From the NCBI GenBank assembly GCA_004335835.1, contig RWJK01001312.1, positions 97,296-161,295 of the forward strand: a DNA stretch of 64,000 nucleotides, in the 5' to 3' direction. Under the pieces are notes generated by a model. That model had not been told where the DNA came from and did no database searches. It worked only from the letters and a program-made list of their open reading frames with translations. Of this stretch, positions 1 to 64,000 are shown one piece after another (positions within the stretch are counted from its first letter, which is position 1; each line of letters begins with the position of its first letter). Position numbers and translations under genes: made by a program. This stretch comes from Scenedesmus sp. ARA3 (lineage: Eukaryota; Chlorophyta; Chlorophyceae; Sphaeropleales; Scenedesmaceae).

Positions 1-7
1 ACAGCGT

Positions 8-467
8 GTGCGTGTACTTGTGTCGCAGGTGCATCAAGGTGCCAGGCGGTGCCAGGGCACACATGTATTATCCCCTCTTATCCACAATTGTGCGCGTGTG
101 TACTTGCAGAATTGCGTGGCAGGTGACGCCGCACCCGCAATATGTGGCCGTGACAATCGTTGCCCCGTTACACCACTGAGCAGCTGCTGGCGTGCAATAA
201 CAGCATGCGCGTGTACTTGTGTCGCAGGTGCATCAAGGTGCCAGGCGGTGCCAGCCACCCACATGTACTATCCTCTCATATCAACAGCGTGTGTGTGCAC
301 TTGCACAGTTATGTTGCAGGTGACGCCGCACCCGCAGTGTGTGGTGGCGGTGACAATCGTCGTCCCATCATACCACTGAGCAGCTGCCGGCGGGCAATAA
401 CAGCGTGCGCGTGTACTATCCTCTCTAATCAACAGCATGTGCGTGTACTTGCACGTTTGTGTCGCAG
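8..467 (+). repeat. Acceptor-side tandem echoes of the downstream terminal exon
   Basis: A roughly 197-199 bp unit is repeated, then a shorter 148 bp step leads to the true exon. The block starting with CGTGTACTTGTGTCGCAGG occurs at 11 and again at 210. The exon head that follows the acceptor CAG recurs at 123 and 320 and then at 468, where it becomes the real exon. Both echoes keep the acceptor and the reading frame for about 15 codons and then hit a TGA. They are interpreted as intronic relics of duplication across the 3' splice site. Confidence 0.75.
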
Positions 468-632
468 GTGACGCCGCACCCGCAGTGTGTGGTGGCGGTT
501 ACCATAATGGGCTCTGCTGCCAACTCTACTGGCCAGGACTTCTTCTTCAATGGGCTAGCCGTTGTGCCCATCACACAGTCAAACCTCAATCGAATCGACC
601 AGCGCTCCAAACGCGCCTTCCGTTTTGAGTGA
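468..632 (+). CDS. Terminal exon of an unrecognised gene (5' part outside the window)
   Basis: The exon follows a TGTCGCAG acceptor and gives 54 codons plus TGA in phase 0. It encodes VTPHPQCVVAVTIMG..., then a hydrophobic FFFNGLAVVP stretch and a basic tail ending KRAFRFE. I do not recognise the family. Only the C-terminus is present, because earlier exons lie upstream of the window. Support comes from the sustained non-repetitive reading frame and from the two degraded copies of its first 15 codons upstream, which are the echo pattern seen at proven exons elsewhere in the window. A TGTAA at 1497-1501 could be its poly(A) signal, which would imply a 3' UTR of about 860 nt. Confidence 0.5.
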   Translation: MTPHPQCVVAVTIMGSAANSTGQDFFFNGLAVVPITQSNLNRIDQRSKRAFRFE

Positions 633-3048
633 AGTGGATCCTGGACCGTGGATGATTATGCACGTGCTGTCTGCTTTTTGCGATCAGCATCTGTTTATGT
701 AGGTCCCACATGGAGCGTGCATGCCGCGCGGCTGCAAGGACACAGTACTTTTTGGACTTCAAGTTGCTGTGCCAAGACCAGAGGGTGCTGGCCCTAAGCA
801 TCCTTGATGCTTTGTGTTACAACTGTGTGTGAGAAAAATCCAGTATGCATTGTGCAGTCAATGTGCTCTGAGAGAATATGTACACGTGCGTGCAAGCGCA
901 CACCTGTCATCTTCAGTTGGGTTCTGTGCCATGAACGGCACGCGTTGCCGACGCGGCATGTTCGTGTTGCAGTGGCTGGCCTCGACCGACCTGCGCAGGG
1001 TCTGCAGCTCAAGTTGTCAAAATGCCGTCATTCGCGTTGCTGCATTATGCTGTCACCATTCCAAGCACCTAGTGATTTATTGTGCATGGCACCGATATGT
1101 TGTGCCAGGGATGGCTGTTGCTGCAGCTCTGACTACGGGGCCCATCCACTGGGTGCCAACCTGTTATTCAATGGCAGGTTGCATGGCTTTTGAGCCGCAG
1201 TTGTCACAAGGCCACGGGGTTGGGGGGCTGACTATGGGGCCCATCCGGTGGGCCAGTGGCACTGGGTTCCAACCTGCCATGCACAACAGCGGTTTAACGC
1301 CATGGTGGCCTTTGGTGGTGCACTTCTAGACATGTGACTGACGCAATATGCTACATTGTGCTACTGCAATGCGTGTTACCTGCAATTCTTTATGCTACCA
1401 GCTGGGTGTACTGCTGTTGTCACCCCATGCATATGGCCAGCAGGTGGCTGAGCCTGACCAATGGTGTCATCAGCTTGGGCTGCGTAAATATGTATATGTA
1501 ATCATAATTTATTTGATCATTTTGAAACCAACGTGTTTGCGACTCAGCGCAGAGCAGCAACATCACTTCGTATGTTATGTGCATCAACAACATGTTTCCT
1601 GGCGTGCAATGCTCGCGACATCACTGGATAACAAATCATCAATCAATACCGATATCAAAAATGCCACTGCGACAGAGAGGCGGGGGAGTCACCCGCCACG
1701 CAGCTTCTGGCTCCTGCTTTTCTGGCGATTCTGGCACACTGGAGTGACCGTCTTCAGTGCGTTCGTACGGAGTCGAACCAGCCGTGATAAAAGATGATAC
1801 AGAAAACAAAATTTTCAGTGATAATACGTGCGACATGATTTGACTCGGTGGTGCAATTTGGTGTGACCAACACGCCCAACGCAGTATCAGTGACGAAGCA
1901 TGGGCGATTCGGACAAAGCTTGAAGCACCTTGAGGACTGATGATTGAATTCCTTCACTAAGATTGGGGCAAGAGCTGGCAGAAAGTCACACCGTCACTGT
2001 CACTCGGGTTTGGTTGGGCCGCAACCCCCAGCACTACATAAGGTGCCAAGTGCGCAGCACCAGCTCAATCTGTTACACTGACTGTCGCCCAACACGCTGC
2101 GCTTGCAATCCTGATCATTGTTGCGTCGTGCGTGCTGCTGTTAGCGCCGGTGAGGCTGATCACTTGGCAGCATGCCAGCCGAAGCCAGCGGCATGATGCA
2201 GCACAAATCACGAGCAATTTAATGTCGACAAGCTGCAGTAATTTGGTAGCCCCAGCTCGCAAGCCAGCAGCCCGCAGTTTGCCGCTTGAATGAACTGCTG
2301 GTGCCCAGCTCGCACGTACCAGCATCATCGCTGTATTGTTCGAACAATCTTTATATAATACGCAGGGCATGCTGTCAGGCAGATACGTCAATGTACAGGG
2401 CGTGCTTTACTTGTGAAATCTGAAAACCGGCAGCTGCGCTTTTATGAACGTTACAGAATTTTGATGCGCAAAAAATCACAGCACTGCATTCGACCCGAGA
2501 TGTGAAGCCTTGCTGTCTCTGCTCCCTGCGCTCACCACAGACTATCGCCTCCTACTGGCCCCATCACCAGGTGCCCTTGGCGTGTGCAGCAACGAGCCGA
2601 ACCGGTGAGTTCGTCAGCAGCTGTGACAAACAGCAGTGCTGATGGAAAACAGGTACTCCATGATCAGCAGCCTCAGGAGCCGTGCCTGCCACGTGCTCTC
2701 AGGCTGTACAGTATTGGCCAGTGGCCATGGCAGAGCATGCAGCTGCAGCAATGCGCACCAGGCAGCTGCAGCGCAGCTCGCTGCCAGATACATCGCGGCG
2801 GTGTGTGCAAACAGCACCCTAAGAGCTTCTGCAGCAGTGCAGAGGCCTTCTGAACATGTGTGCAACAGTGTCGGTTGCGCTGCAGCGAGTAGTGGTTTGG
2901 GCGTCACGCGTACGGCTCACGGAGCCTGCATGCTATCACAGCAATGGGACCCATATACATGGGATGCTATGCAGCAGCAGCACACTGCTTCCCACATACA
3001 GGCGCAATTGCCTTCCTACCTGCCACCCCAATTACACTTTCTTACTGC
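633..3048. other. Intergenic / untranslated region, no gene supported
   Basis: No reading frame here combines an ATG, codon bias and splice signals. It holds the presumed 3' UTR of the first gene and a degenerate direct repeat at about 1131-1190 and 1219-1285, both containing GGGGCCCATCC and an AACCTG...ATGGCAGG-like stretch. An AT-richer stretch lies at about 1480-1980. The promoter of the secreted protein gene probably lies near the right end. Confidence 0.5.
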
Positions 3049-3466
3049 CCCTTGTGCCTGCCATGCCTCCCCTGCCGCAGGGACCCTCTCTTGACTACCA
3101 CACCCCAGGCAGTACTTCACACCCACACCTCAACCACAGATTGTCATCATGAGCCGCTTCCTTGCAGCAGCGCTGCTGCTGGCAGCCCTGCCGGCCCTGC
3201 TTGCTCAGCCGAACTGCCGCTCTGACTACATCCTGCTGCTGCCCGCCGTGCCTCCCCTGCCCTCACCACAACCCAGGCAGTAATACACACCCACACCCCA
3301 ACCAAACAAGAGCCGCATCCTAGCAGCAGTGCTGCTACTGGCAGCCCTGCCAGTCCTGCTTGCTCAGCCAAACTGCCGCTCTGACTACATCCTGTTGCTG
3401 CCCCCTGTGCCTCCCCTGCCCTCGCCACACCCCAGGCAGTAACCCACACCCACACCTCAACCAAAA
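3049..3466 (+). repeat. Start-codon echoes: repeated 5' leader plus signal-peptide region
   Basis: The segment containing the leader, start and signal peptide of the secreted protein occurs three times with a period near 159 bp: start codons or their equivalents at 3149, about 3308 and 3467. A faint fourth leader copy lies at about 3049-3140. The copy at 3149 is an intact 44-residue ORF (3149-3283, TAA stop) that begins MSRFLAAALLLAALPALLAQ. The middle copy has AAG in place of ATG. Only the last copy continues into the mature protein. Confidence 0.8.
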
Positions 3467-5858
3467 ATGAGCCGCATTCTTGCAGCAGGACTGTTGCTGG
3501 CAGCCCTGCCAGCCCTGCTTGCTCAGCAGGCACCCAGACCACAGGAGCCAATCCCAGAGTCTGCTGTCAGCATCGCCCAGGACGGCATTGAATTTGCTTT
3601 CCGGCCATTCAACGCCAGCAACCCTAAGGCAACCACCTGCGAAACAACCTGCAGCTCCACGTATGGCTGGGCGTCCTTGTATGCCGGCACTCAGAACCGC
3701 ACCCTGTGCACAATGAAGGTTGGCAGCAGCATCATGGTTGGTGAGTTCAAGCTGCTGAGAAGTTGCCACTGCCGTGTGCTGCATGGCATGCGGCAATTGG
3801 CAGTCTCACAACTAGTTGTATGGCATGCAGCATTCGGCAGCAGTTTCAAGGCATGCAGCATCCGGCAGCAGCCGGCTCAAATCAAAGTTTTTTTGCCATG
3901 CAGCATCCAGCAGCATTGTGATGTCTGTCCCAAGCAGCAGCTCCCACAACGAGCCCTCTGCTGCCAGGCGCTGCCAGCAGTGTTGGTCGAGGCTGGATGC
4001 TTGAATGTTGTGGACTCCCAACAGAATGTTGCTTTGTGAATCAATAAATCGCAAGCTGAGCAGCGAGGTGCAGCAGCAGGGGATCTCATAGCAGCATGTT
4101 TCCAACAAGCAAAGCATGACATCAAGTCTGGTGCTGTGTGAGCATGGCAGCATCGATCAAAGCAGCTGCCCAGCTGGCCTGGCTGGCTGGCATGCAGAAC
4201 CAGCAACGCATTGCCTAAACAGCGCAGCCCAGCTGTTCAGCTGAGAGTCACATGTTTCCCCAGTTGTAGAAAGTAACACCATGCCATGTGTGTTGTGTCT
4301 GCTGTGCATGCACAGGTACCGCGCAGCGTGTGGGCAGCGCCTATATGTGCCAGTATAGGGTAAGTCACGCAGCATGCCTAGGAATGAGACTGAATGCATG
4401 CTGCTGGCTGCGACCGAGCACTATGCAGCTGCACTGCGCATGCCAGCAGCTGCACCTGCAGGTGGTTAGCACACGTCACTCTTGCATCAGGCATGCAGCA
4501 ACACACCCACCAGCCTGCAAGCTGTTGCAGCAGCAACAGCGGCATTGCCACCTGGCACGACGCAGCAGTGCACTGTTAGGGGCACAGCAGTATGATCTCA
4601 GGCAGCAGGAGCAGCAGCGAATGCATTGCAGACGGCATTGTACCCCAGCATGCTTGCTGACGACAGGCACTGCCCAAAATGCTCACTCTGCTGCATACTC
4701 ACACATCCTCTGCCCTTCATTTGCTCAACAGGCCAGCGCTACAGCAAGGACCCCTGTCAGCGTCCGTCGTGGCTTCAGTTGCGGTTGCGCCTACGCGTGC
4801 GCGGTAAGTAACTATGCCATAAGTACAGCCGGCTTCATAGTGGTGGTGGAGGCAGGATATGTTGATATGTGTGGCACACAGCCATTGCTCTGCCTGGCAG
4901 CTGCATGGGATATTACAGCAGCTGTTGCGCAGCAGGCAGTGTGACGATCTTCACTCTAGAGTCAATCCTTCCGTGCCTTCGTGGGCAGTGCAGGTTTTCA
5001 AATGTAACCGTGTCGCATGTGTGTTGGCGGCACGGCCTTGGTGGTTGCTGTACAACACATATGTCTGCCAGCCCGTGACCTCATGTGCTCATTTAATGGC
5101 CGTCCGCTGCTGCTGCTGCCGCCGCTGCTACTAGGCCGCTGACTACGAATATGACTGGGTAAGCAGGCGCCGGCCATGCATAGACTCTTAAGCTTGCAAT
5201 ATTGCCCTGCTTGGGCATCATTGCAGTTCTTGATGCAGTGTTGGCAGCAGCTGTGGGCATACTGTGCTTGTTTGTGCTTTGATGTGCAGCGTTGCCGCAG
5301 CAGCAGCAGAAGCAGCAGAAGCAGCAGCAGCAGCAGCAGCAGCACTGCCTTGATGTCACTGCAGCAAGCACGTATGGCAAGCACCCACTGTACATGTGGT
5401 TCCCACATGTGCTTGCAACTGACACGACTGGCATCAAACCTTGCAGACAACAACCTGGCTTCAACCCTTCCACTTTCTATGCAACAGCTGTATCTGTGTA
5501 TACACCACGAAGCAGCTGCACAACACCCCCACTCACAACTCATATTCGCATGTGCTCCTGCCTGCAGAACTACGACAACAACAACACCCCAGGTGGCGCA
5601 CCCAAGCCCGGCAACACAAACGTCGACTACGAGGCCTCCAAATGCCGCAAGACCTTCTGGAACCAGTCCCCTGCTCCTACTGCTGCAACCGGCCCCAAAT
5701 GCACCTGCGCAACCGGCTGCATGTGCCGCGCGAGGATCGGCACCACTGGCAAGAACTATGTGACTGGCTGGGTGGCCAACAATGGCAACAGCTGCATCAC
5801 GCACATGGGAGCGCAGCGTAGGTACGATCTCTTCTTCCAGTGCCGCCCCAAGGCTTGA
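3467..5858 (+). CDS. Small secreted cysteine-rich protein, 5 exons, 234 aa
   Basis: Exons are 3467-3740, 4316-4359, 4732-4803, 5135-5158 and 5568-5858 (TGA). All have GT-AG borders and the phases join to 705 nt exactly. Exon 4 is a 24-nt micro-exon encoding AADYEYDW. The protein starts with a clear signal peptide (MSRILAAGLLLAALPALLAQ) and is probably exported to the wall or medium. The mature part holds two resembling halves. Residues around 55-107 contain a CETTC segment, a later Cys and an AQR...Y.CQY ending. The last 55 residues contain CTCATGCMC, another Cys and AQRR...FQC. I do not recognise a named domain, so the function is unknown. The ATG at 3467 is chosen because only this copy of the repeated signal-peptide region continues in frame. 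Confidence 0.75.
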
Positions 5859-10400: not shown

Positions 10401-12865
10401 CTGCTACCAAACACATCCAAGCCACACGCCTTGAGGCCAGACACCACATGCGCTGGCAGCTGCTTGGCGACTGCCGCTAGCCCTCCACTTGCTGCATCAT
10501 CACTTGTGACAGCATGACCAGCTGCAGCGCGTATCAGTTGCAAGGGCTGTGATGTGCCAAGTAGCTCATGGCTTGCCATGCTGCTCATGTGTGCCAAGTG
10601 AGCTCTCAGGGCTAGCAGGGTGTCAGGCTCTGGTGCTGAGGGCTGTGTGAGGTGCTCTGCCGACAGCTGCATCAGCAGCAGCCATGCTGCAGGGCCTGCA
10701 GTGCAGCAGTTTGAAAGCCATCGTGACATGACAAAACGCAGGAGCATGCATGCATGCATATGCATCTATGATGCAATGCACGAGGGCACACAAACAAAAG
10801 CACCACAGCGGTTTTAGGCATCTGTGCTACCCACCAGGGGTGCCCACGCTGCACAAGTAGCACGCAAATTCAGCTCAGCAACAATGCAACCGCACTCCAG
10901 ACTAATCTCAACTGGTCAACTGGTCCCCAGTGCTGCTTTAACCATCAATCCATGGAAGCAGCGCCGCCACAACTGCATCCACTCTCATGTTCACCCACCT
11001 GAAATGCCGACCCCACACATGTAGCGCGCAAAGTCAGCCAGGCACAGCAGCACCACATCCCTGATGCTGGCCAGCTCCTCCGCCTGCAGGTAGCTGCTGC
11101 TGACAGCAAAGCTGAAGGCGCCAGCCCACAGCCACTCCGTGTGCAGCACTGGATTGCCAGCAAGGGTTGACAGCAGCTGCCGCTTGGCGCCGAATGCTGC
11201 AAAATCAGCATCAAAATCGTAGCAAAGTAGCACAGCCCAAACAGCTTTCAGTCAAGATGTGTTGTCAAAGGCTTGGCTGCAGCGTAGCTTGCATTGTACA
11301 CACGGTAAGTGCTGCTGGCCCCACAGCACGCAAGCAGCAGCTCAACATGGTGGCCTGGGGCTCCCTCTGCTTACCTGGTTGGCAGCTGGCGTGCTGAAGT
11401 TAGCCACTGCTGGGCATGTATTATGCAGCGAAACTAGGTGGACTGCATGTACTGCCTCTCTCTCACCCATAGCTGGTCATACAGCAGGTAGCTCAATTGC
11501 TGGGCTAGCGCTGCATAACAGGAACTGGCAAGCTTACCTGGTTGGCAGCTGATGGCGCAGGCCAGCTCCAGTGCCGCCAGCACCACCCGGTAGTCCTCCT
11601 GCACTGCCGCCACCTCAACGATGGAGTTGAGCATGTCAGCAAGCACATCAAACGCAGCAGCGCCCACGCGCCGCTCCCAGCTGCAACCTTTAGCAGCTGG
11701 CGTCGGCGGCCTGCTGCTGCTGTTGCTTTCTGCTGTGCTGTCAGCAGCATCAGCAGCCCCTCTGGAAGCCTGGCTGCAGCTGCTGCAGGTTGTAGCTGCA
11801 GCTGCTGCTGCTGCATGCTTGTCTACATCTGGGGAGCCTGCAGTGCTTGACGTTGCTGCAGCTGGCTGTGATACCTGCGCTGCCTTGATGCCATTGCCGT
11901 TACATGGTGATCCTGCACAAGCCACCCCACTACTACCCGCTGCTGTTGAACTGGCTTCAGCCTCTCCTGCCTCCTGCCGCTTGCTTCACAGGCCAGCTGC
12001 TTCAGGCCTTCCACAGCAGGCCTGCTGCATGCTGCGCTACCAGCTGTGCTTGCAGGTGCCGAAGCTGCCTCAGCATCCCTACAAGTAGTGCTAGAAACAG
12101 CACCTCTTTCGGTATGCCAGCTGGGGTCGGTGGTGGGGCTGTGAGATCTGCTGCTGCTGCCAGCCTTCAGCTTAGCAGACATGGAGCGGCTCATCACAGA
12201 TGCACTGAATGCAGACGCCATGGCTGATGCTGCATTGGCAAATGACTCCATGCTCTGGCTGACTTTCATGCCTGAAGGGCTGCGAGATCGAGCACTGTGG
12301 CTGCCACCAATGTTGACCCCAAAGAGTTTGCTGCTTTTTGAACTGCCTGGCTTGCCACTGTGCCTGCTGCTGCTGCTGCTGTTAGGTGGCAGCGATGATG
12401 TAGCCAGTGGATTGCGTGGGCTGCCAGGCGCTGCTTTGCCTGCTGCTGCTGGCCCTGGCGCCACCCCAGAGAAAGAAACAGACAGGCCGCTATTGCCGTT
12501 GCCTGACTTGCTGCTGCGGCCTCTGCTGGCAGCTTCCGCATTGCTGGCGCTGCTGGGCGCTGTGTTGGCTGCTGTTGCATCTGTTGTCACAATCTCCTTG
12601 AGCCGGCTGACGAGGAACCAGCCATTGCCTCCAGTCTGCAAGCACAGCAGGGCACACATGTCAGTGCCAGTGAGAGTGACAAACTAGTGTGTTTGCAGCA
12701 TGCTGAAGTCCCTCACACAACGCCCCAAAAATGGCAGTAGCAGACGCAAAAACGCCATGAAAAGAAAGCTCTCAACTGTTTAGCTCAAGGAGCTGTACAT
12801 ACCTGCAAACACAGCAGCCGCCTAGCAGCTTCCAGCTCCTCATGCGCCTCCTCCTGCTGCAGCGC

Positions 12866-12897
<32 letters not shown>

Positions 12898-15800
12898 CAG
12901 CATCTCCGCAAGCCACCGGCTGCATCAGCTGCACCAGCAGCCCTGTCTGCCTGCGCACCACATCCGCCTCAGCAGAGTACTCTCCTAGCTCCACGCCCAA
13001 GCCGCTGCTGCAGCTGCCAGTACAGCTGCTGCTGCTGCCAGCCGGGCCATAACTCGACGGCGCAGTCCCTGCGCCGGTTGCTGCGCCTGCTCCTGCAGGA
13101 GACGGGATGGTCTCTAGGCCGTTGTCACGCAGGTTTGGCCGCTGCTGCAGCAGCAGCGCCTCAGTGGTGAGCAGGTCCGGCACAGGGCTCCTGCGCCGTA
13201 GGTCAATCCGAGACCCCTGCAGACAGTGACAATGCAAAAGCGACGTTTTGTTGAGACTGATGCGCAGCACACACACCAACAGGCAATGCGCCATGTCCTC
13301 ATACTGAAGCTGCGTTGCCGCCCCTGTTGGTCGACCCCCACATCTGCCACAGCTAACTGGCCGACAGCACAGCAGCACAAGCTCATGTAGACAAGCAGCC
13401 CCAAATCCATGCAGCTAGCTGGTGACATACAACACTGCAAGCACCTTGCACTGCATGCAGCCGCGCCTGCCCACCATGAGCTCTGAGATGGCCCTGCGCT
13501 TGCCCGCACTCTGTCGCTTCTTGCTGTTGGCGTTGGCGGCACGCCGCAGCCGCAGGCCCGGGCCCTCGCCCTGCTCCACTAGGATCAGCGCAGGGAAGTT
13601 GCGGTACAGCAGCCCAGGCCGCGGCACCAGCGGCGACACCTGCCGCTGCGGGTTGGTGAAGACCTCTGCACGGTTGTGTGCAAAGAAAGAGAAAAGCCGT
13701 TGCAGCAAGTTATGTATGGTTTGAAGTTGAGTTATAATGCAGCGCGATGTGCCACGGCAGGAGCATTTCTACGCTTCCTGTCTGCAGGTGCTCGCCCTGC
13801 TCCACCAAGAACAGAGCAGGGAAGTTGCGGTACAGCAGCCCAGGCCGCGGCACAAGTAGCGACGCCTGCCGCTGCGGAATGGTGAAGACCTCTGCATGGT
13901 AGTTGAAAGAAAGGCAGCAAAACGTTGCAGCATACGTGCGGTTTGAAGTTAGGTGTGGGATAGTTGGCAGAGTCATGTTCCACAGCAGAAGCGTCACTGC
14001 GCTGCTTGCATCTGCAGGACACTGCAAACTCGCCCACCTGTTCCCTTGTCCAGCTTCAGCATGGCGAGCCTTGATGCATGATGTGCTGCCTCCAGCGACA
14101 ATACTACGCTTGTGGGCTGCAGGACACTGCAAAACGCCCACCTGTTCCATTGTCCAGCTTCAGCATGGCGTGCCGCGATGCATGGTGTGCTGCCTGCAGT
14201 TGCTCTTCTGCTGCCCTCCACTGCCCTAAGGAGTCCTCTGCTGCAGCTAGCCAGTCTTGGCTGTTGTAGGGGCAGCCGCCCTCCTCCACAAATGACAGGA
14301 AGGGAAGGCCCTGCATCATGTGCTGCAGCAGGGCTGGGTCGCAACGCCTGCATATAATGTCCAGAAATAGCAGGGCAGCAGCAGTGCAGCACAGCCACAG
14401 GAAGACCATCAAGCAGTCAGGGCCCAAGCAGTAGCACCGCACTTGCCTGGATCTGATAGGTTGGCACCGGCACTGATGGGATGTCAAACAAATTGTGATG
14501 CTACAACCTTTTATTGGAGCAATCAGAGACATCACATGCTGCAAGGCAGAACGGCATATGTGCTGCGTGCATGTGCACTGCCTGTGTGCGGATTTGGGCG
14601 GTGCACTCACCCACACAGCGCAGTGTGATGCTCCAGCACTGCAGCCATGTCCACTCTGCACGGCGGCTGCTGCGGCCCCAGCAGCACAGAACTCCTCACT
14701 GGCGGCACAACAGGCAGCGCCACACCGCCGCCGCTACCGCCGCCGCTCACTGCCGCACTCGACGCACGCTTCTGCATCTGCAGCAGGCCTTGCTGTACGC
14801 CGCTGAGCGCCCTGCAGGTGATGCTGCGGCTGCCGTCGCAGCTGCCGGGTATCAGGAAGCCTTGGTATCCATCCAGCACGCTGCGGAAGAATTCCATGAA
14901 GATTCGCAGCAGTAGCGCCTGCTTGCTGGGCCCCCAGGGCTGCCCTGCCATCTGCTGTGCTGCAAGGATCCAGGGGTCTGTGTGCTGCGCTACTGCATCA
15001 GCGTCTGCAATAGACGGCTGCAGCAGCATCCTGCAGCCCAGGAAGCATGACAGATGGAGCAGACAGTGTGCAAGGATACATGGTGTAGCGGTGCGCGTTT
15101 CAGGTAGCAGTGAGTGCAGGATGCTGCTGCATGCTTTACAGGGGCGGCATTGTAGTGCTACTGCACGTTTGTTTTCAGGCTTGAGGCAAACCAGGTTAAA
15201 GGTACACCAGAGGACCATGCAGTGTGCACCAGGCGATGACGAGGCAGACTTTGATGGGGGCTACTGCACCCACCTGACCCTGCTGCGCAGCTGCAGCATG
15301 TATGGATGTGCCAAGCAGCGCTGCAGTATGGTGTCTGTCCTGCTGGGCCGCAAGCTGTCTGCATCCAGGTCCACTTCAACAAGCGCATCCAGCACATGCG
15401 GCTCGACATACTCGCCGCTATGAAGGCCCATGAGGAATGGCGTGGGCGCCTGCATGCATGCAGTCCGATTGCAAGTCGATCGCAAGTCTGCGTGTTAGAC
15501 GATGGGAACACAGTTCATTTTGGGCGAATGACAGGGGCATTGGGCACAGCGAGGTGCAGGCTGCTGCTCTGGCTTCTGTTGCAGGAGTGGCTGTCACTGC
15601 TTTGAATGTGGCAGGTAGCACAGGTTGTTTCTGTTGGGGTGGGCCAACAGCTGCCTCCGCTGTGCTGCACAGCTCACCTCCAGGTAGTCTGTTCATTTAA
15701 ATGTAGTGCAGTGTGCAGGACACAAGCACACTGCACTAGAGTTCAGTTGAAACAGCATCTGGCTGCACAGCTCACCTCCAGGTAGTCTGTCAAGCTGTAT

Positions 15801-22937: not shown

Positions 22938-24795
22938 GTGCAGGGAGAAGTATGAGGTGGTCATGGTGTCACCCCGCAACTACTTCCTGGTGAGCTGCAG
23001 TGATGGGCGTCAATTCAATGAAATCGGATTATCAGGGCATGTGCACTCGCAGTGCTGCAGCCGCTACTCCGCTAATGTCAATAGCAGTGCAGCTACGCTG
23101 TGCTCTGTTTGTATTTGATGCAGCTGTCTCCTAGTCAGCAGCAGCGCTTCATTTGCACCTAGCAAGGTAGCATGGCTCATGGCACGGTCGCGGGGGTCTG
23201 CATGGCGCAACAATTTGTACCTCAATAGCGTGCTGCGTGCATGCCACTCAGCAGATACCAGCAGGCTGCTAGGGTGCATGTTGCAGCTGTTGCAGCACCA
23301 ACCGTGCAGTGCTAACACCTTCAGCATGTCGGAAGGTCAAAGGAGAACAGGGTGCACAGGGCACCAGCCGTGCAGTGCCTCACCTTCACAGAGCTGCAGC
23401 TGTTGGTAGCTGTTGGCAGCTGTTAGAGATTTGCTGTCAAGCTGGCAGCACCTCCATCTGAGTGCCGTAGGTTGCTGCATCAGCACCTTCATCATCGACT
23501 AAGTCATTGGATGGCGGGTTTTGCGTTGTCGCAAACCCTGTTCTCTTTTGACATAGTGTGATGCTGAAGGTGTTGGTACTGCAAGCTGCGCCACGCAGTG
23601 TGGTGCACTCTTTCAGCTTTGAATCTGCCACTGTGACTTCTGCAGTGGCAGCAAGCCTAGCAGCTGCCAGTTGCTGCAATCGACTCGGCATGCACATCGG
23701 CTGTTTGCAGTGCTGGTCTGCATGCCCTGGCCGTGCGTGCAGTGCATAGTACCTTGCTATCGGCAATCAAGCGTGCCAGGCATTATCACCAGTGGTTGTC
23801 GCCACGCTCAACCCTGTGGTTCGCTGCCGTGGCCCTGCCCCAACCTATAAAAGCCACATTCGAGCTTTCAATCAGCGCCTTGCCCCATTGCCATTGAGCT
23901 ACAGCCTTGATTGCTTCCCACGTGTGATTGCATGTGAGCTGCTGCTGCTGCTGCTGCTTGCAGTACACGCCGCTGCTGCCTGCTGTTGCCGTGGGCACCA
24001 TGGAGGAGCGCAGCATTGTGGAGCCAGTGCGCAACCTGGTGCTGGGCAAGGTGAGGCACAATGCCAGGGGCAGGTTTCACGCTTCAAACACCATTCTGTC
24101 TCTCGCGTGTGGAGCCAGTGCGCAACCTGGTGCTGGGGAAGGTGAGGCACAGCAATTGATTCAAATAAAGCATGGATGATTGTTCTACGATGTAGTTGCT
24201 GCCTTGGTTGGTGAAACCAGTGCGCAACCTGGTGCTGGGCAAGGTGAGGCACAGCAATTGATTCAAATAAAGCATGGATGATTGTTCTACGATGTAGTTG
24301 CTGCCTTGGTTGGTGAAACCAGTGCGCAACCTGGTGCTGGGCAAGGTGAGGCACAGCAATTGACTCAAATGAAGCATGGATGATGGTTCTATGGTGTAGT
24401 TGCTGCCTTGGTTGGTGAAACCAGTACGCAACCTGGTGCTGGGCAAGGTGAGACACAATGCCAGGGGCAGGCTTCAAGCTTCAAACACCATTCTGTATCT
24501 TGTGTGTTGTGTGTTGAGCCACTGCGCAACCTGGTGCTGGGCAAGGTGAGGCACAGCAGTATAATTGGTTGAACGCCAGTTGCCGCCTGCTGGCCGCAGG
24601 GCTGACGTCCAGATGCTGGAAATGTTTTGGTGGCTATGCGTTGCAGCGGTGCGGCCGATGTGCATCATGTCCTGCTTGTGAAGTGCAGAGTTGAATGAAG
24701 GGCCTGGACAGGTTGATTAGCTTGCTGTACAGCAGGCTGGGAGTGGGCTGCTTGCTTGCTTCAGCTGGTACAGCATGACAATGTACACGCTGCTG

Positions 24796-24833
<38 letters not shown>

Positions 24834-24901
24834 GCGACTACTACAAGGCTGTGTGCAAGGCCATCGACCGTGTCTGTCATACGCTGACATTGTGTGCACC
24901 G

Positions 24902-24944
<43 letters not shown>

Positions 24945-27900
24945 GGGCAACTACTATGAGGCTGTGCGCAAGGCCATCGAACCTGTCTGTCACACGCTGA
25001 CATTGTGTGCACCCTTCTGCTGCTCCGCTGCTGCTGCTGCTGCTGCCGCTGCTGCTGCTGCTGCTGCTGCCAGGGCGACTACTACGAGGCTGTGTGCAAG
25101 GCCATCGACCATGTGCTGACATAACACTTTTCTGCTGTTGCCGCTGCTGCTGCTGCTGCTGCTGCCAGGGCGACTACTACGAGGCCGTGTGCAAGGCCAT
25201 CGACCCGGTGCGCAAGGAGCTGGTGGCGTGCTTCCCAAAGGACGCTGGGCTGGATGAGGCATGCTTCAAGATTGCTTATGACATCCTTATCATTGGGGTG
25301 AGCTTGTAGAGGGTTGGCACACACTTGTATGGCTTTAGCTTTCTGGTTCAAGGATGAAGCGTGCTTCGAGGGGGCGTACGCCATCCTGATCACCCCTGGG
25401 GTGAGTTCTGAGGCCTGTTGCTTTGGACCATTTGCCCGCCTTGCTTCATGCAAGCATGCAAAAATGCTGCCCTCTGGCTGTTGACCCTGCTGTTCTGACA
25501 TGTCTGCACTGCAGGTGGGCAGCGTGAACAACACGCTTGGCGTGAAGGGCGTGGCCAATCACTGCCAGTTCCTAACTGCCCCTCTCACTGCTGCTGACCC
25601 TGCTGCTAACATTGCTGCCGCGCCTGTTTTCCTCCAAATCCTGCGGCAGGTGGGCAGCGTGAACAACACGTTTGGCGTCAAGGGCGTGGCCAATCACTGC
25701 CAGTTTCTAACTGCCCCAATGACTGCCGCTGATACTGCTGCTTCAACTGCTGTAATGTGAACATCACTGCAGGTGGGCAGCGTGAACAACACGTTTGGCG
25801 TGAAGGGCGTGGCCGAGTACTGCCAGTTCTTCAAGTCCATCGAGGACGCCAACACGCTGCGCAAGCGCATCAGCGAGTGCTTCGAGCGCGCAGCGCTGCC
25901 CTACGTGAGTGGGCCTGTGCTGTATCTTGTCAGCAATTTGCTCTGCCCATAATAGCAGCTAAGAATTGGTTAGTGCTGCGCAAGCGCATCAGCGAGTGCT
26001 TCGAGCGCGCCGCGCTGCCCTACGTGAGTGCGCCTGTATCCGCTGCAAGCAGCATCAGCGGAGAGCATGTGCACAGAGCACAGGAGACGACGCAAGTGAT
26101 CTTGCCCGGGCACAGATTGGAGCTGCTCTGTAGAATTCCACCTGCTGCGTGCTTCTCTTGTGCCCTACGCACAGCAGCGGATGGTGCTGCAGGCATGCTG
26201 CTGCCGAACATGGTGGAAGCAGGGTGAAGCGTACCCTGGTGGCATATTTTACCTGCTGGTGTTCACTGACCGTGCATGTTCTGTCTGTTTGCTGCTGCCT
26301 GGCCTGCGCAGACACCCGAGGAGGAGCGCAAGAAGCTGCTGTCCTTCGTCATCTGCGGCGGCGGGCCCACAGGCGTGGAGGTAGCCGCAGAGATCCACGA
26401 CTTCGTGTTCAACGACCTCAAGGTGCGGCCACAGTCGGTGACTTGCGTTATAACCACTATATAACCTTGTGGGTGGCGTTTTGGTCATGTTGTTTTGGAA
26501 AGCCAGATGCGTGGAGGTGGCGGCTGAGATCCACGATGTTGTGTTCAACAACCTCAAGGTGCGGTCGCAGGGTCGGTGCTTTAGGGAATTAGGTTACGTC
26601 TTCGTGTAAAGAACACGGTGTTTTAACTGTGACGTGCAACCACTATGACGTGCAATAACTTGCCGCTTTCATACTTGTGGATGGCTGTTTCGCTATGGTG
26701 TTCCCAAAGCCAGTGCGTGGAGGTGGCGGCCGAGATCCACGACTTCGTGTTCAACGACCTCAAGATGTGGACACAGGGTTTGGTGGTTTAGAACAGAGTT
26801 AAACTCGTGGATGGCTTCTCTGCTTGTTTTTTAACCGATGTGCTGCGTGGAGGGGTGACTGAGATCCACGACTTTGTGTTCAACGACCCCAAGGTAATGC
26901 ACTGTTGTGTACCAGCACTGGAACTGTTGCATCGCGTGAGCTCTGCCCCACAGCCCTCTGCTGTTGCATGTGTATCCCCCGCATGAACACTACACATCAA
27001 TCTGAGCTGCTGAAGGATGTGCATCTGTCTGCAAGACGCACCGCCATTTGTTGTTGATCTTAACAGCCGTGCACCTGGTGTCTCGCCTGCAGGCGCACTA
27101 CCCTGAGCTGCTCAAGGATGTGCGCATCGGCGTGATCGAGCTCATGGCTGTTTGCCTGCAGATCCGCCACCCTCTGTCGGCGCTCTGAAGATCCACAAAA
27201 CTGCTGTTTTGCCTGCAGGCACACTACCCTGAGCTGCTCAAGGACGTGCGCATCCGCGTGATCGAGCTGATGGACTACGTGCTGTCTACCTATGACCGCA
27301 AGATCGGCGAGTTCACGCACAAGCAGTTTGAGCGCGCAGGTGCGTTCACACACAAGTGGGTCCTGGCAGCATCAGACGGTGTACCAAATGCATGTGCATG
27401 CGTCGGATCATCGTACTAGCCGTCTTATTGACAAGTATCATACACCATTGCAACTCCCACTGCACCAACAAACCCACCTGCAACTGCTGGCGCCGCTGCT
27501 GACAAGTAACGCTGAAAAATGTGTCTGCATGCCGCAGGCATTGAGCTGGTGCTGAACACGCGTGTGGCCAGTGTGCGTGACGGCTATGTGTCTGTGGTGC
27601 CCAAGAGCGGCGAGGAGTTCGAGATCCCCTTTGGCTCCTGCGTGTGGGCCACTGGCATTGCCATGAACCCGCTCATCAAGGAGCTGCAGCAGCAGTTCCC
27701 CGAGCAGACACACTTCAGGTGAGCTGTTCTGTGAGGTGTGGCTATTCTGAGGGGGCTTGAAGCAGTTGTTTAAAATCGCCATGAACCCACTGATCAAGGA
27801 GCTGCAGCAGCAGTTCCCGCAGCAGACGCACTTCAGGTGTGGGAGCTGGTAGTCTTGTGGTGTCATGTGTGCTGTGCGTGAGGCATTTGTACACAATGCC

Positions 27901-31066: not shown

Positions 31067-31111
31067 GAGGCTTGTGTGTGAGTGGCTTGCAGCAGGCTGC
31101 AGCAGCGGTGA

Positions 31112-31160
31112 AGGCTGGGTGTGCACCAAACTCTTTGGGCGCGACATCTCGCGCGTGTGA
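31112..31160 (+). repeat. Stop-codon echo of the NAD(P)H dehydrogenase
   Basis: The last 15 codons ([14 protein letters not shown]) and a stop (here TGA) recur 94 bp past the real TAA, inside the presumed 3' UTR. Confidence 0.9.
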
Positions 31161-33594: not shown

Positions 33595-33790
33595 CTACTG
33601 CTGCGTCAGCACGCCCTTGCTGGCCATCGCGCCCCGCCACTACTCTTTTACGGAAATTGCCACTCTGCTGCTGGTGCTGGTGCTGCTGCTGCTGTTGCTG
33701 CTGCCTACTGCTGCGTCAGCACGCCCTTGCTGCTGGCGACCTGGTCCCGCCGCCGCTCATCATACTCAGTGGCGCGCCGCAATCCGCTGC
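33595..33790 (-). repeat. Two stop-codon echoes of the histidine gene, 110 bp period
   Basis: The minus-strand gene end ([10 protein letters not shown] and TAG) recurs with stop positions at 33705 and 33595, each 110 bp further downstream of the real stop at 33815. The nearer copy still reads [24 protein letters not shown]; the farther copy keeps only the last ~10 codons. Confidence 0.9.
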
Positions 33791-35133: not shown

Positions 35134-37316
35134 ATGGCAGCAGACCCGCTAGCGAACTCTGGGCACTTCTTTGGCATGACGTGAGTGGCGCAACACGCAA
35201 GCAGCTGAATTCTGCAGGCTTGGAGTCGTGCAGTAGTAGTGGCGATGCTGTGCTGACCAGATGATGTCCGCAGGCAGCTCTGCAGAGATGCCAATTCTTG
35301 ACACACAACACATTGGCTGAAAAATAGGAGCAAACTGCATGTAGAGGCAGCTGTCAGGTGCAGCCATGGACTGCAGAAAGTTCAGTACCAGGCAGTAATT
35401 GCCACAGTCAGTGACTGCTCACTGTACTTCGCATGTCATCATGATTGAGCAGCACTGCAAAAAAAGCTTTCGAGCAGCGCGCTGGCGGCCGCGGAAAAGC
35501 AACACTCGTCCTGGACAACGACTGAATGTGCCCCGTGCTGTGCTGATGTCTTTGTTGCCTACTTGCAGCACGCTTGGCGCCACAGACCCGTTCTTTGATG
35601 CGGCGTCCACCACCCCCCAGTACCCTTTCCATTACATTCCAGAAGAGGCTTACATGGAGGCAAGCTACTTGCACTGTCAGCCTGAACATCGTATTTTCAG
35701 CTGCCAGCAGCTTGGCAGGCCATCTGGCGTTGCGTGCAAGCTGCGCGAACACTGGACGGCGCTGCAATGGCACAACACCTTCAGCTGCTTCCTGCAATGC
35801 TGCCATGGCAGCTGCTCAATTGTTGTCAGCAGCGACATGTTACACGAGCATCTGCCAGCAGCTCACCCAACAGCAGTTGCCCACCAGGATGTCTGCAGAG
35901 CAAGCACAACAAACCAACCGCCTCCTGCTGCTACTGCTGCTGCTGCTGCTGCTGGTGCTGTGCTATGCAGGTGTTTGAGTGCCACAAGCTGGGCGCCAGC
36001 AGCAGCATCGCAGCCACGCTGGAGGTGGATGGCGACAGCAGCGTGCTGCGCGGCAAGCTGGGGGAGATGCTCAACGACCTGCTGGGCCGGCAGGCAGTCA
36101 AGGTGGAGCTGCAGGTGCGGCACGTGCAGCTGCCTGTGTGTGCTTGCACAGCAGTGTGTCCTGCAGGAGTGGAACCACTGCACCTGAGAAGGCTGGGTGA
36201 CTGAGCAGCAGCACCAGGGCACAAGGTGTGTGGGCGCTTGTTCTGACAGAGGCTGCAAGTTGAGCACCTCTGCAAATGCTGGCTGGTGCAAACAGCTCCA
36301 ATCTCCTTACCACATGGTGCCGTGCGGTGTTTGCGCTGCGTGGTTTTATGCCCTGCAGGCCTGGTTCGCCTTCCTGTCGTACGACCGCGGCTGCATCATG
36401 TGCCGCGAGGAGTACTGCCAGGCGGTCAACTAGCATCCCAGGCATGGGCCACACCCTTAACTCACCTGCTGCCGGCTGCTGTCAAGCGTGATCCGCAGGC
36501 CTGGTTTACGTTCCCGACAAGATGCTCTTATGATGGGCATTATTCCCCACCTCACCCTCCTGTTGTGCTGTTTGTTGTGATTGCTGGGTGGCCTGTGCCC
36601 TGCAGGCCTGGTTCACCTTCCTGTCGTATGACCGCGGCTGCATCATGTGCCGCGAGGAGTACTGCCAGGCGGTGCAGCTGCTGCGGCAGTTCTCGGCGCA
36701 CCCCCAAAAGGCGCGGCAGTACAGCAGCTACGACCACTGGCGGGCGGACCACCTGCAGCATAGGCGTGTGGAGTGGAACCCGCAGACGTCGCTGCAGGAG
36801 CCCATCACAGCATCACAGCAGGTGCGGGGCATGCACAGAGTAGTAGTGCCCTGTATGTTGCCTGTAACAGGCTGTAGCCAAGTGAAAACAGAACCCGCAG
36901 ACGTCGCTGCAGGCGCCCATCACAGCATCACAGCAGGTGCGCTGTTGCCACTGTTTTGTGACATGTTGCGTGAAGGGTGGAGTTTGCGCAAGGCGGTTGT
37001 CACAGGACAGGCAGCACTGCTGCACAGTGCGCCCCTACTTGGCATGAAAGCCTTGTCTGTAAGGAAGGTATTTGTAAGCAGGCGGCACACATGATATGTG
37101 ATCGGCAACCCTGCATGTGCCTCCAGTATCTCCTGCGACGTCGTATTTGTGTCCCTGCTGTTGCTGCCGCTGCTGCTGCTGCTGCAGGTGGGCTGGCATG
37201 CGGCCAAGCCGCACATGGAGCCTGTGGAGAAGCGCTTCCCGCTGTCACACACCGACGTCACCAAGAAGGAGGGCCGCAACGCAGCCACGTACTACGGCTA
37301 CATGACGCTGCTGTGA
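35134..37316 (+). CDS. Small protein with possible FAM183/CFAP144-like ciliary C-terminus, 5 exons, 208 aa
   Basis: Exons 35134-35180, 35569-35659, 35971-36114, 36606-36821 and 37188-37316 (TGA) total 627 nt with consistent phases. Exon 2 ends in a GC donor (GAG|GCAAGC); no GT donor fits. The N-terminal half (MAADPLANSGHFFG..., VFECHKLG..., AWFTFLSYDRGCIMCREEYCQAV) is soluble and not recognised. The C-terminal half has an HWRADHLQHRRVEWNP segment and a PITASQQVGWHAA...EKRFPLSHTDVTKKEG segment. These remind me of FAM183/CFAP144 proteins of the ciliary axoneme (IGW..., R-F-..-S-..-T-K). The similarity is by eye and weak. No signal peptide or membrane segment. Confidence 0.7.
36359..36605 (+). 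repeat. Two acceptor echoes of exon 4 of the CFAP144-like gene
   Basis: Copies of AWFAFLSYDRGCIMCREEYCQAV start at 36359 (75 nt, then TAG at 36431-36433) and, shorter, at 36499. The real exon starts at 36606. All follow CCTGCAG or CGCAG acceptors. Confidence 0.9.
36889..36942 (+). repeat. Donor echo of exon 4 of the CFAP144-like gene
   Basis: A copy of the exon end (NPQTSLQ-PITASQQ region) with donor GTGCGC, ending 115 bp after the real donor. Confidence 0.85.
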
Positions 37317-48683: not shown

Positions 48684-48717
<34 letters not shown>

Positions 48718-50696: not shown

Positions 50697-51100
50697 CTAC
50701 TCTGCCAGGTTGCGGTCGATGGCCCTGGCAACCGCCCTGCCCAGCACGTCATATCCAAACTCAGTAAGGTGCAGGCCATCATCCAGCCACCTGCTGCGCT
50801 CCGCATCGTCCATGTTGTAAAAGTCCATAGTGGTGGCCTGCAGGACGCGGCAGAAAGGTACACGATGATGAAGACATGGAATTGTTGTGATGTGTATCAA
50901 CAGCCGAAAGAGCAGCTTGGTAGGGCAGAGGGCTGACAGGTCACAGCTGAGGCAGGTTGCGGGGCAGCATCTGTGGCCGGTGCCATGCACAGGCCGGGGA
51001 GCCTTGTTCACTGCATACGGTATGCTGCTGCTGCTGCCGTCGCCGCGAGTATAAGTTGCAAACCTGCGCACCTGCAGGTTTAGCACGGCCACCTTGGGGC

Positions 51101-51154
<54 letters not shown>

Positions 51155-52358
51155 AGACAGTAATGGTTGTTATGTGTGCGCACCTGCAGGTTTAGCACGG
51201 CCACCTTGGGGCTGCTGCTGCTGCTGCTGCTGCTGCTGCAGACAGTAATGGTTGTTATGTGTGCGCACCTGCAGGTTGAGCACTGCCACCTTGGGGCTGC
51301 TGGCGCGCCTGCTGTTCTCGCCTGCTGCCATGCCGCGCACCATGTCGGCCAGCTTCTTGCGCTCACCCTCCTTGTAGTCATCCCTGCGGCAGCAGCAGCA
51401 GCAGCAGCAAATGTGAGGTGACTGGCAGGGTGGCTCTAGCGAGCGGGATGAGGATGATTGTGTGCATGGCTGCAGTGGCCAGCTGCACCAGTTACGCCTT
51501 TTCGTTGCTTGCACGCACCCGCCGGATCCACTGTCAGTGACACAACCCCACAGCATGCAGTGCACCTGCTCAGCATCTGTACGGCCGCTGCGGCCAACAT
51601 CACCCCACTCACTTTGACACGAAGCCAGGCGCGCCAAAAGGAGGAATTGCAATTACATTTGAGCCTGCATCCAGCGCCCAGCCGTAGATCTGCTGCAGGC
51701 CTCCCTTCACTTCCTCTGCTGATTTGCCCATGCGCAGCAGGTCATTGATGCCCAGCATGACGATGACATAATCATAAGGTGTACCGTGGCGCTTGGCACG
51801 CTGAATGGCTCGCTCCGCTACTGGGGGGATGGTGGTCTGCTTGTGGAAACCCACTGCAAAGATGCCGGCACCGCCCACGCCTGCAGATGTTACGTGGCAA
51901 GTTTTGAGGTATGAGGGGCCGCTAGTGGAACGGCCGGCAGGCAGTGTGTCGGCACAGATTGGTGTATGGGGGCTATTCAAGTGCTGATTGCTGGAGATAC
52001 TGCGTGCAGGTGCCTGAGAGCTGAGCATCATCATAACGTCTCATGCGCAATGCAAGCGTGCTATGACGTACTTTAGACCAATTCGGGCAGCTGCCAGGGG
52101 TGCAGCTTCCTCACCTTCGTTGTCTATGGTGATGCGAGCGTTCGGCCGCAGCTTGCGCAGCTGCTGCTCCAGCTGGATTGTGTACGGGTGGTTTGTGTTT
52201 TTGCTTGGGACTGAACCCTCAGTGATCGAGTCGCCAATCGCCAGGATGCGAATGTCGGTGTCCTGCCGCAGGAGCCTGGCAGCATCTACTGCCCAGCTGC
52301 TGCAGAGGAGCGCGAACAGCACGGCTGCCGTGTACGCTGCTGCTGTTTTGTTCGCCAT
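50697..52358 (-). CDS. SGNH/GDSL-type hydrolase, secreted, 4 exons, 255 aa
   Basis: Exons, high to low: 52115-52358, 51613-51880, 51269-51383 and 50697-50837 (TAG), 768 nt, phases consistent. The ATG at 52358 gives a signal peptide (KTAAAYTAAVLFALLCSSWAVDA). SGNH motifs: block I GDSITEG with the nucleophile Ser, at about residue 43; block II NEGVGGAG, split by intron 1; block III GIND; block V DGLHLTEFG with the catalytic Asp/His. The fold is that of GDSL esterases and acetylhydrolases, acting on esters in the secretory path or outside the cell; the substrate cannot be read from sequence. A paralogue's last exon is at 63620-63850. Confidence 0.88.
51072..51262 (-). repeat. Two donor echoes of GDSL exon 3 with expanded CTG tracts
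   Basis: On the minus strand the exon end SPKVAVLNLQ and donor GTGCGC recur with borders at 51184 and 51072 (real 51269), spacings 85 and 112 bp. Each echo is preceded by CAG repeats (CTG on the + strand): about 9 units at 51211-51239 and about 16 at 51105-51152. Confidence 0.9.
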
Positions 52359-56641: not shown

Positions 56642-56643
56642 AA

Positions 56644-56648
56644 TGTAA
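56644..56648 (+). promoter_or_regulatory. Candidate TGTAA poly(A) signal
   Basis: TGTAA lies 3 nt past the stop of the first GILT-like gene, so close that it may be fortuitous. Confidence 0.25.
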
Positions 56649-59674: not shown

Positions 59675-60260
59675 ACGCAGCACTCTGCTGCTGCTACACG
59701 TGCAAGCCCCTTGGATGTCATGTGCTGGTGGTTGTCACTGCCAGATGTGGCTTGAGCGCAGCACTGTGCTGCTACACGTGCAAGCCCCTTGGCTGTCATG
59801 CGTAGGTGGTCAGCATAACGGTTATCACCGCTAGCTGTGGCTTGAGCGCAGCACCACTCTGCTGCTTCACGTGCAAGCCCCTTGGCTGTTATGTGCTGGT
59901 GGTTGTGCCTGCCAGCTGCGGCGTGAGCGCAGCACTGTGCTGCTACACCTGCGAGCCCCTTGGATGTCATGTGCTGGTGGTTGTGCCTGCTAGCTGTGGC
60001 GTGAGCGCAGCACTCTGCTGCTACATGTGCAAGCAGCTTGGCTGTCATGTGCTGGTGGTTATCACTGCTAGCTGTGGCGTGAGTGCAGCACTCTGCTGCA
60101 ACACCTGCAGGCCCCTTGGCTGTCATGCGTAGGTGGTCAGCATAACCGTTACCACCGCTGGCTGTGGCGTGAGTGCAGCACGCCGCTGTTACACGTGCAA
60201 GCAGCTTGGCTGTCATGTGCTGGTGGTCGCCCCTGCTAGCTGTGGCGTGAGCGCATGAGC
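59675..60260 (+). repeat. Minisatellite, about 8 copies of a 76-91 bp unit
   Basis: Units contain GCTACACGTGCAAGCCCCTTGG, TGTCATGTGCTGGTGGTTGT and AGCTGTGGCGTGAGCGCAGC. They start near 59690, 59769, 59867, 59940, 60021, 60099, 60188 and 60264, with variant units carrying GCGTAGGTGGTCAGCATAACGG. It starts right after the GILT2 stop, so it probably lies in its 3' UTR. Long open frames on both strands are by-products of the repetition. Confidence 0.85.
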
Positions 60261-63200: not shown

Positions 63201-63504
63201 TTCTGAAGTACGTGATACAAAGTAGGTATGCAGGTATCAACAACACACTGAATGCGCTACGGGTACACACAGTTCCATTGCAAACATCAGTATATACACC
63301 TGCCACTGTAAAGCGGAGTAATGAGTTCAACACACAATCCGGCCATGTGGAAGCACTGCTCCACAACTCCGACAGGCAAACATTTGGAGCTCCCATAGAG
63401 GAAGCGCGCTGCACCAGTCACCCTTGTGCAGATGCACGCCGCGTATCGGTATGCCGCGTACCGGTATGCCAGTATGTCATGTTCATCCACGCTGCTACCT
63501 CACT
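60261..63504. other. Intergenic region, no gene supported
   Basis: This is 3.2 kb without a supportable gene on either strand. Local features: short ATG repeats at about 61251-61263, and a CTG run at 63043-63060. Frames are short and lack family signatures. Confidence 0.4.
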
Positions 63505-63740
63505 CACGGCCGTGTGCGAGCTGCATTGCGCCAAATGCTGTAGCTGGCCTCTTGTGCTGACACCTGTGCGTAATCCAGCAGCCCCAGCTGCGGCAGATTA
63601 CACAGCTGACTCATCACCCTCACGGCCGTGCGCGAGCTGCATTGCGCCAAATGCTGTAGCTGGCCTCTTGTGCTGATACCTGTGCGTAATCCAGAAGCCC
63701 CAGCTGCGGCAGATTACACAGGTGACTCATCACCTCATCG
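63505..63740 (-). repeat. Stop-codon echo of the second GDSL gene, 116 bp period
   Basis: The end of the gene (MSHLCNLPQLGLLDYAQ..., stop) recurs nearly unchanged, with the block CACGGCCGTG(T/C)GCGAGCTG at 63505 and 63621. Confidence 0.85.
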
Positions 63741-63850
63741 TACACGTACTGCCCCAGCTGCTCGTATGCAAACTGCGTCATGTGTAGGCCGTCATCCAGC
63801 CACCTGGAGCGCTCCTCCGGTGACATTTTGTAGAAGTCTAGGGGACCGGC
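63620..63850 (-). CDS. Last exon of a second SGNH/GDSL hydrolase (partial)
   Basis: 231 nt, phase 0, ending TGA, after a CTGCTGCTGCAG acceptor on the minus strand. It reads GPLDFYKMSPEERSRWLDDGLHMTQFAYEQLG, clearly paralogous to the last exon at 50697-50837 (MDFYNMDDAERSRWLDDGLHLTEFGYDVLG). The block V Asp/His are kept. The C-terminus is about 30 residues longer and includes sequence that was tandemly copied. Earlier exons lie beyond the window. Confidence 0.8.
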   Translation of the reverse strand, partial: AGPLDFYKMSPEERSRWLDDGLHMTQFAYEQLGQYVYDEVMSHLCNLPQLGLLDYAQVSAQEASYSIWRNAARARP

Positions 63851-63901
63851 CTGCAGCAGCAGCAGCAGCAGCAACATTCTCATCAGCAAGTCAAGGGCAG
63901 A

Positions 63902-63940
63902 GGGGTCGGGAGACATCTTGTAGAAGTGTAGGGCGCCGGT
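63902..63940 (-). repeat. Acceptor echo of the second GDSL gene's last exon
   Basis: On the minus strand, ACCGGCGCCCTACACTTCTA and onward reads TGALHFYKMSPDP, a copy of AGPLDFYKMSPEE, directly after a CTGCAG acceptor, 90 bp upstream of the real exon. Confidence 0.8.
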
Positions 63941-63942
63941 CT

Positions 63943-64000
<58 letters not shown>
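63941..64000 (+). repeat. CAG microsatellite at the window end
   Basis: Almost 20 uninterrupted CAG units (CTG in the sense of the minus-strand GDSL gene) run to the window edge. They sit directly upstream of the acceptor echo. Confidence 0.95.

Follow-up and report, generated by a model that had tools for sequence, protein, structure and literature searches.

Tandem duplication across an intron-exon boundary is known from the potato RdRp gene, where it gave rise to a new intron (Ma, Lan, Niu 2016, PMC4974935), and intron gain has been treated in a review (PMC3443670). According to a genome study of the Sphaeropleales, introns average 462 bp in Tetradesmus obliquus, compared with 230-302 bp in relatives (PMC5966456). 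Here we describe a 64,000-nucleotide stretch of Scenedesmus sp. ARA3 (assembly GCA_004335835.1, contig RWJK01001312.1, positions 97,296 to 161,295; hereafter the window) in which many exon edges recur a short distance away on their non-coding side, as arrays of echoes, our term for copies of coding-border sequence. The genome that holds the window comprises 87.3 Mb in 1567 contigs. The closest proteins to those of the window are from T. obliquus (NDH2 and GDSL, by protein comparison), and the source alga is judged to be T. obliquus or a very near relative.

Exon borders were set without use of the repeats, by spliced alignment of homologous proteins to the window DNA and to that of two paralogues. 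The NDH2 gene has 14 exons and shares 613 of 629 residues with T. obliquus P0001; P0002, a transcriptome-derived protein of a relative, aligns with the identical 14 exons and without any echo. The GDSL gene has 4 exons (253/255 residues the same as in P0141), the DENN gene was modelled on P0121/P0122 with 14 exons used, and HisB is a single-exon gene (Pfam IGPD match, E 2.9e-62) whose borders were taken from an ab initio gene finder made for this analysis. Two further NDH2 genes, L024 and L025, carry echoes of their own, and L025 has exons 7 and 8 fused and one intron fewer; a paralogue on another contig shares 432 of 436 residues with T. obliquus P0027. The 33 window exons and 19 exons of L024 and L025 make up a homologue-fixed set of 104 coding borders.

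Scanning the window against itself without gaps, at lags 30-430 and a score of at least 18, returned 127 segments, against 0 and 0 in two control ranges (lags 5030-5430 and 12030-12430). At the homologue-fixed borders, 49 echoes, counting a weak one at 26992 before NDH2 exon 7, lie on the non-coding side of 31 of the 104. The one wrong-side match is marginal (NDH2 exon 11 3' edge against 29280, score 16.5) and, extending 0 nt from the border, is taken as chance. Within the window alone, a significant copy accompanies 20/66 exon edges on the non-coding side and 0/66 on the opposite side, although one of the 20, the 3' edge of DENN exon 5 (score 15.0), drops below the cut of 15.5 used for the window listing once masked letters cannot match. 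A first-pass annotation, made from the window's letters, had reported about 50 short tandem copies spanning splice sites, start codons and stop codons, always on the non-coding side. The copies and their sidedness hold, and the count is plausible, yet 34 window copies (homology-supported genes and HisB) are those listed here, and many are not strictly tandem, the intron-side match reaching at most 15 nt in 25/49 echoes. The copies ascribed to nearly every multi-exon gene are uneven in density (14/28 edges in NDH2, 6/38 in the other window genes). Stop-codon echoes are confirmed in NDH2 (31090..31160, plus strand) and, twice, in HisB (33815-34459, echoes within 33595..33781, minus strand); start-codon copies were seen by eye only, as three copies around a probable start codon at 3098..3527 (plus strand). 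The spare copy lies on the non-coding side because the protein stays the same only if the outer border is the one in use, so sidedness is expected from protein preservation and is no independent evidence on mechanism.

It would be very surprising if the echoes were an artefact of assembly or gene models. The data come from a single assembly, and the unsupervised gene finder calls many echoes as additional exons (window 23964-30276), but the copies differ from each other by ~13% on average, the borders derive from homologues of other assemblies and a transcriptome, and an exon-edge peptide is repeated in a T. obliquus protein of separate origin. That protein, P0001, has a 16-residue exon-edge peptide twice in a row, which NDH2 exon 10 of the window (28572-28678) has once; the repeat is a strain- or annotation-specific echo, possibly called as an exon, and offers a lead on whether copy number varies between individuals, as it would in a minisatellite. 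Public annotations of such genomes may hold spurious repeated peptides.

The whole window contains 39 repeat clusters, of which 21 touch homology-supported exons, 14 touch only gene-finder exons and 4 touch none. Within the homology-supported genes every cluster touches an exon, and the number of purely non-coding clusters is 0/21. Geometry predicts that random units that are not wholly exonic should be purely non-coding in 39% (introns collapsed to 250 bp) to 62% of cases, under which 0/21 has a probability of 3e-5 to 1.5e-9; if purely intronic pairs are visible for half as long, the expectation is 24-45% and the probability 0.003 to 3.5e-6. The first-pass explanation, in which duplications occur everywhere and only selection removes them from exons, predicts 24-62% where none of the 21 was found, and finds no support in this comparison. 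Purely non-coding arrays do exist in the window, since a plain 84-85 bp tandem repeat at 55228-55487, the clearest such array seen, touches no predicted exon. A further array at 59655-60294 (period ~78-171 bp, 29 pairs) overlaps a weak predicted exon only.

The echoes also have a preferred spacing. Periods had been put at about 85 to 260 bp; the nearest copy lies 71-296 bp away, and consecutive spacings fall at 85-155 bp in 40/49, typically ~120 bp. Nearest echoes are intron-internal, with exon parts of 30-101 bp. In the 26 nearest echoes within 200 bp, exon part and spacer are about equal in length, the ratio of exon part to period (e/p) being 0.51 with a standard deviation of 0.105, against 0.216 for uniform breakpoints (0/20000 simulations). 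This result hinges on the limits assumed, with P of 0.0004 to 0.005 under moderate limits (0.005 for e of at least 34 and spacers of at least 23) and 0.68 if spacers under 44 bp are excluded by assumption, so that a minimum spacer of 44 bp alone would give the observed spread. Acceptor-side spacers measure 44-82 bp, as expected if a branch point and pyrimidine tract have to be part of each copy; shorter ones occur in 4/18 donor- or stop-side spacers. One reading is a process aimed at borders, which would place a ~120 bp unit, half exon and half spacer, preferentially at exon edges and keep the exon half in step with the exon. We think this rather unlikely; were it true, introns of this lineage would grow in quanta from their own exon ends.

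Exon half and spacer are unevenly conserved. Across the 49 echoes, compared without gaps, the last 30 exon bases match at 0.81-0.88, and identity past the splice site drops from 0.81 at +1..+5 to 0.51 at +6..+10 and 0.38 at +11..+15. The donor-edge echo of NDH2 exon 9 (exon 28066-28204, echo 28265..28324, plus strand) is a plain tandem with a matching spacer. The intron-side match exceeds 35 nt in 19/49 echoes, and in this class divergence is 0.133 in the exon part and 0.187 in the spacer, approximately what two free branches would give against one free and one constrained branch. Exon-part divergence is alike (0.131) in the 25 echoes whose match ends by 15 nt, which argues that the exon-only class is not simply older. 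Some exon parts are near-identical: 48/49 at 25904/26023, where homology of the donor-edge echo of NDH2 exon 5 (25975..26023, plus strand) stops 14 nt past the splice site; 84/87 at 29667/29925, where that of exon 11 (29839..29925, plus strand) stops 5 nt past it; and 59/61 in L024 exon 8. The spacers at these three places have no similarity above chance (percentiles 0.43, 0.33 and 0.64). Exon parts that are 97-98% identical beside spacers without a detectable match suggest that the closest copies are not the product of plain neutral decay.

The spacers themselves were followed at several places. A genome search with the 171-bp spacer 29668-29838, one spacer of many, gave 1 place, its own, and a repeated spacer element, introner or transposon insertion was set aside for this spacer, which does not recur in the genome. 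NDH2 exon 3 (23964-24050) is followed by five donor-edge echoes ending at 24141, 24243, 24345, 24447 and 24545 (23964..24545, plus strand), with spacers of at least two kinds that read a,b,b,b,a',c, a mosaic order as expected if copies recombine through their exon halves. By eye, two near-identical outer copies flank a decayed middle copy at 36359/36499/36607, within a plus-strand feature (36359..36936) whose acceptor-edge echo at 36359 matches at ~97% over 78 bp (lag 247) and whose decayed copy lies near 36499; a donor-edge echo of the same gene ends at 36936 (plus strand, borders by eye and gene finder). A minisatellite with whole-unit homogenisation was also rejected, exon halves being alike and spacers often unlike.

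Local direct repeats occur in 16/16 random stretches of the genome, with densities ranging from 1 to 60 per 10 kb; one locus, L019, has 23 matches at control lags 2030-2430 too and thus contains other repeats. The best lag of 70 random-locus clusters is 90-150 bp in 37, 151-197 bp in 9 and 198-268 bp in 17. Of the 60 spaced-repeat clusters in the 16 loci, 53 include a copy that falls within a predicted exon, whereas five random placements gave 31-36, an overlap that may be inflated because the gene finder may take echoes for exons; 52 lie at predicted borders, against 35-45 by random placement. The repeats score as coding and the spacers do not (medians 0.120 and 0.073 vs -0.030). Both copies have a splice motif at the repeat end in 25/114 pairs; at positions just beyond the end the count is 1-8, and within the repeat it is 11-16 (score cut 6). 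With gapped extension, at least 85% of the lag is covered, as in a full tandem, in 35 of 119 pairs and less than 75% in 77; full tandems make up 12/50 pairs at an identity of at least 0.90 and 3/12 at 0.95 or above.

Two rival accounts bear on these figures. In the first, template-switch or staggered-break repair would place a 30-100 bp exon edge with its splice consensus into the intron, the unique spacer being filler or original intron. This fits exon-only echoes at high identity (7/13 with an exon part of at least 93%, 4/5 of at least 95%), the one searched spacer that has no second place in the genome and the shared splice motif at repeat ends, but it accounts neither for ends at coding borders, including stop codons without a splice motif, nor for a spacing equal to that of the plain tandem echoes, and we find it rather doubtful. 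The second is the first-pass model alone, in which random tandem duplications arise everywhere, are purged in exons, decay neutrally and stay visible longest beside a constrained exon. Sidedness, intron growth and the nearly neutral evolution of the relics follow from it, as does the expected divergence ratio (0.187 vs 0.133) in the 19 echoes with matching spacers. It is at odds with the 0/21 purely non-coding clusters even at the most lenient geometry (P 0.003), the preferred spacing, the near-identical exon parts beside unmatched spacers and, depending on spacer limits, the narrow e/p spread. Since 0/21, the spacing and the drop in identity after the splice consensus are not predicted by random duplication and purging, that combination does not suffice, and we consider it unlikely as a full explanation.

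We favour, with somewhat less than even confidence, an account in which a border-spanning duplication of ~120 bp is followed by repeated re-copying of its exon half from the constrained exon. Duplications of this size would span the junction of coding and non-coding sequence and deposit an extra exon edge in an intron or untranslated region; paired nicks, which reportedly cause duplications in plants (work attributed to Schiml et al., 2016), would be a plausible source, although they do not predict coding borders as the site. With the true exon edge and splice consensus fixed by selection, exon-edge copies may stay alike enough to misalign, and misalignment in replication or recombination could then let them be re-copied from the exon, expanded or deleted. 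The process would resemble a minisatellite anchored on the exon, while the spacers drift or are shuffled, and each surviving echo would add about one unit to its intron. An array that lacks exon sequence would have nothing to hold it fixed, diverge at twice the rate and be lost from view, and we propose that visible arrays sit on coding borders for this reason. In favour of this account are the border association, the fall in identity past the splice consensus, the like exon-part divergence of the two echo classes, the mosaic spacers after exon 3, the decayed copy between near-identical outer ones at 36359/36499/36607, the divergence ratio in the class with matching spacers and the echo borders common to the NDH2 paralogues.

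The arrays, their border association, their spacing and the uneven conservation of exon half and spacer are direct observations. Several points weigh against this account. First, recombination between copies of 40-90 bp is assumed. Second, the spacer test is weak, the 95th percentile being passed by 9/18 matching-class and 7/22 exon-only echoes, and the 35/119 full tandems in the gapped comparison imply a smaller exon-only share than the 4/119 full-length pairs of the ungapped scan had suggested. Third, silent changes between adjacent echoes are commoner than neutral (48/111 vs 27% expected) and stop-making changes are scarce (3 vs 9.9 expected), a silent excess and stop shortage that fit re-copying from the exon but also some constraint. 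Finally, the echo borders that paralogues have in common may be coincidence or hotspots, and a recent duplicate differing by one echo, sought at two loci, was not found, so that no birth event has been seen.

The relics themselves evolve near neutrally. Polarised by paralogues, the relic branch carries 49 silent and 89 replacement or stop changes and the exon branch 24 and 7, so echo lineages are almost free of protein constraint, as relics should be. An unpolarised silent share of 0.50 had looked coding-like; the polarised relic lineage gives 0.36, near neutral, and coding constraint on the echoes was rejected. An in-frame stop occurs in 1/33 relics and a net frameshift in 9/33. A function of the echoes as decoy or alternative splice sites under selection is highly improbable. 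GT is kept in 18/26 relics and AG in 19/20, identity runs through the splice consensus, and the stop shortage would suit such a role; use of the relic site, however, would keep frame in only 18/49, one third as by chance, the frameshifts and near-neutral changes speak against it, P0002 of the relative lacks echoes, and a complementary far-end splice site is present in 9/49, not more often than in control windows (14%). This last comparison also led us to reject tandem exon duplication or a cassette exon.

In L024 and L025, echoes resemble their own exon. L024 and the window NDH2 each have echoes at 8/19 comparable borders, 6 of which are echoed in both (P 0.022), and all four L025 echo borders are echoed in the window gene too (4/4, P 0.21). 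The sequence that separates exon 5 from its echo is alignable among the NDH2 paralogues, which suggests, but does not prove, an old echo shared by them.

The remaining NDH2 echoes all lie on the plus strand. Exon 4 (25169-25297) follows three acceptor-edge echoes starting at 24833, 24946 and 25074 (24833..25297) and precedes a decayed donor-edge echo (25352..25397); exon 5 (25773-25904) follows two starting at 25515 and 25650 (25515..25904); and exon 6 (26312-26422) precedes donor-edge echoes ending at 26558, 26764 and 26893 (26312..26893). An acceptor-edge echo of exon 7 (27219-27339) occupies 27093..27147, the weaker one spanning 26992-27022, and a donor-edge echo of exon 8 (27538-27718) occupies 27775..27836. 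Acceptor-edge echoes also precede exon 10 (28422..28489), exon 11 (29508-29667; four, starting at 28954, 29097, 29237 and 29377, within 28954..29667) and exon 13 (30859-31066; echo 30563..30592). On the minus strand, DENN has an acceptor-edge echo of exon 13475-13665 (13791..13891) and donor-edge echoes of exons 14142-14347 (14038..14095) and 10999-11196 (10835..10882), and GDSL exon 51269-51383 has two donor-edge echoes (51072..51268, ending at 51184 and 51072). The gene at 35134-37316, which holds the 36359 echo, shows acceptor, donor and stop echoes by eye; its SPMIP11 and FAM183 matches are weak and below curated cut-offs, and it is a possible axonemal protein. Three copies around a TGCAG/GTCGCAG-type acceptor were seen by eye at 1-505, ahead of the final exon of a gene that the start of the window truncates. 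A short interstitial CTAAACCC telomere-like repeat lies at 47725-47767.

Across 45 introns, each echo goes with 96 +/- 13 bp of additional length (r 0.75), a correlation to be read with the fact that longer introns also give echoes more room. The median intron is 431 bp with an echo and 262 bp without, and in the examined genes the stretches from a border out to its most distant echo make up 35% of intron bases. The first-pass link between echoes and intron growth is, as a correlation, borne out. Echoes would be a readable, ongoing source of intron length, and comparison of arrays between strains would allow duplication, re-copying and loss to be measured directly.

A literature search that covered few subscription journals found no published report of this pattern. 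As in potato RdRp, a duplication spans an intron-exon boundary and part of a former exon ends in an intron; the potato case is single and made a new intron, whereas the algal cases are many, leave intron number without visible change and often comprise copies of the exon part alone. Intron gain by tandem duplication of AGGT type shares a short local duplication touching exon sequence, but in that mode the period sets the length of the new intron and the copy sits directly against the opposite splice site; it was rejected here, since 0/46 intronic echoes come within 30 bp of the far splice site, the closest being 115 bp away. In the new introns of Daphnia, attributed to staggered breaks, intronic direct repeats may likewise add length and diversity (PMC4202315), but the repeats shared with the adjacent exon are 4-12 bp, against intron-internal exon parts of 30-101 bp in old introns with a preferred spacing in the alga, and a Daphnia-type origin was rejected. 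Direct repeats near exon/intron borders were also described by Rogers and Bendich 2025 (PMC11782384), where they measure 4-30 bp (mean 11.4) and are read as footprints of intron insertion; the algal echoes are long, occur in multiples and lie on one side. DNA breaks, at which small tandem duplications form (PMC8355091), would be a plausible source, although coding borders are not predicted as their site.

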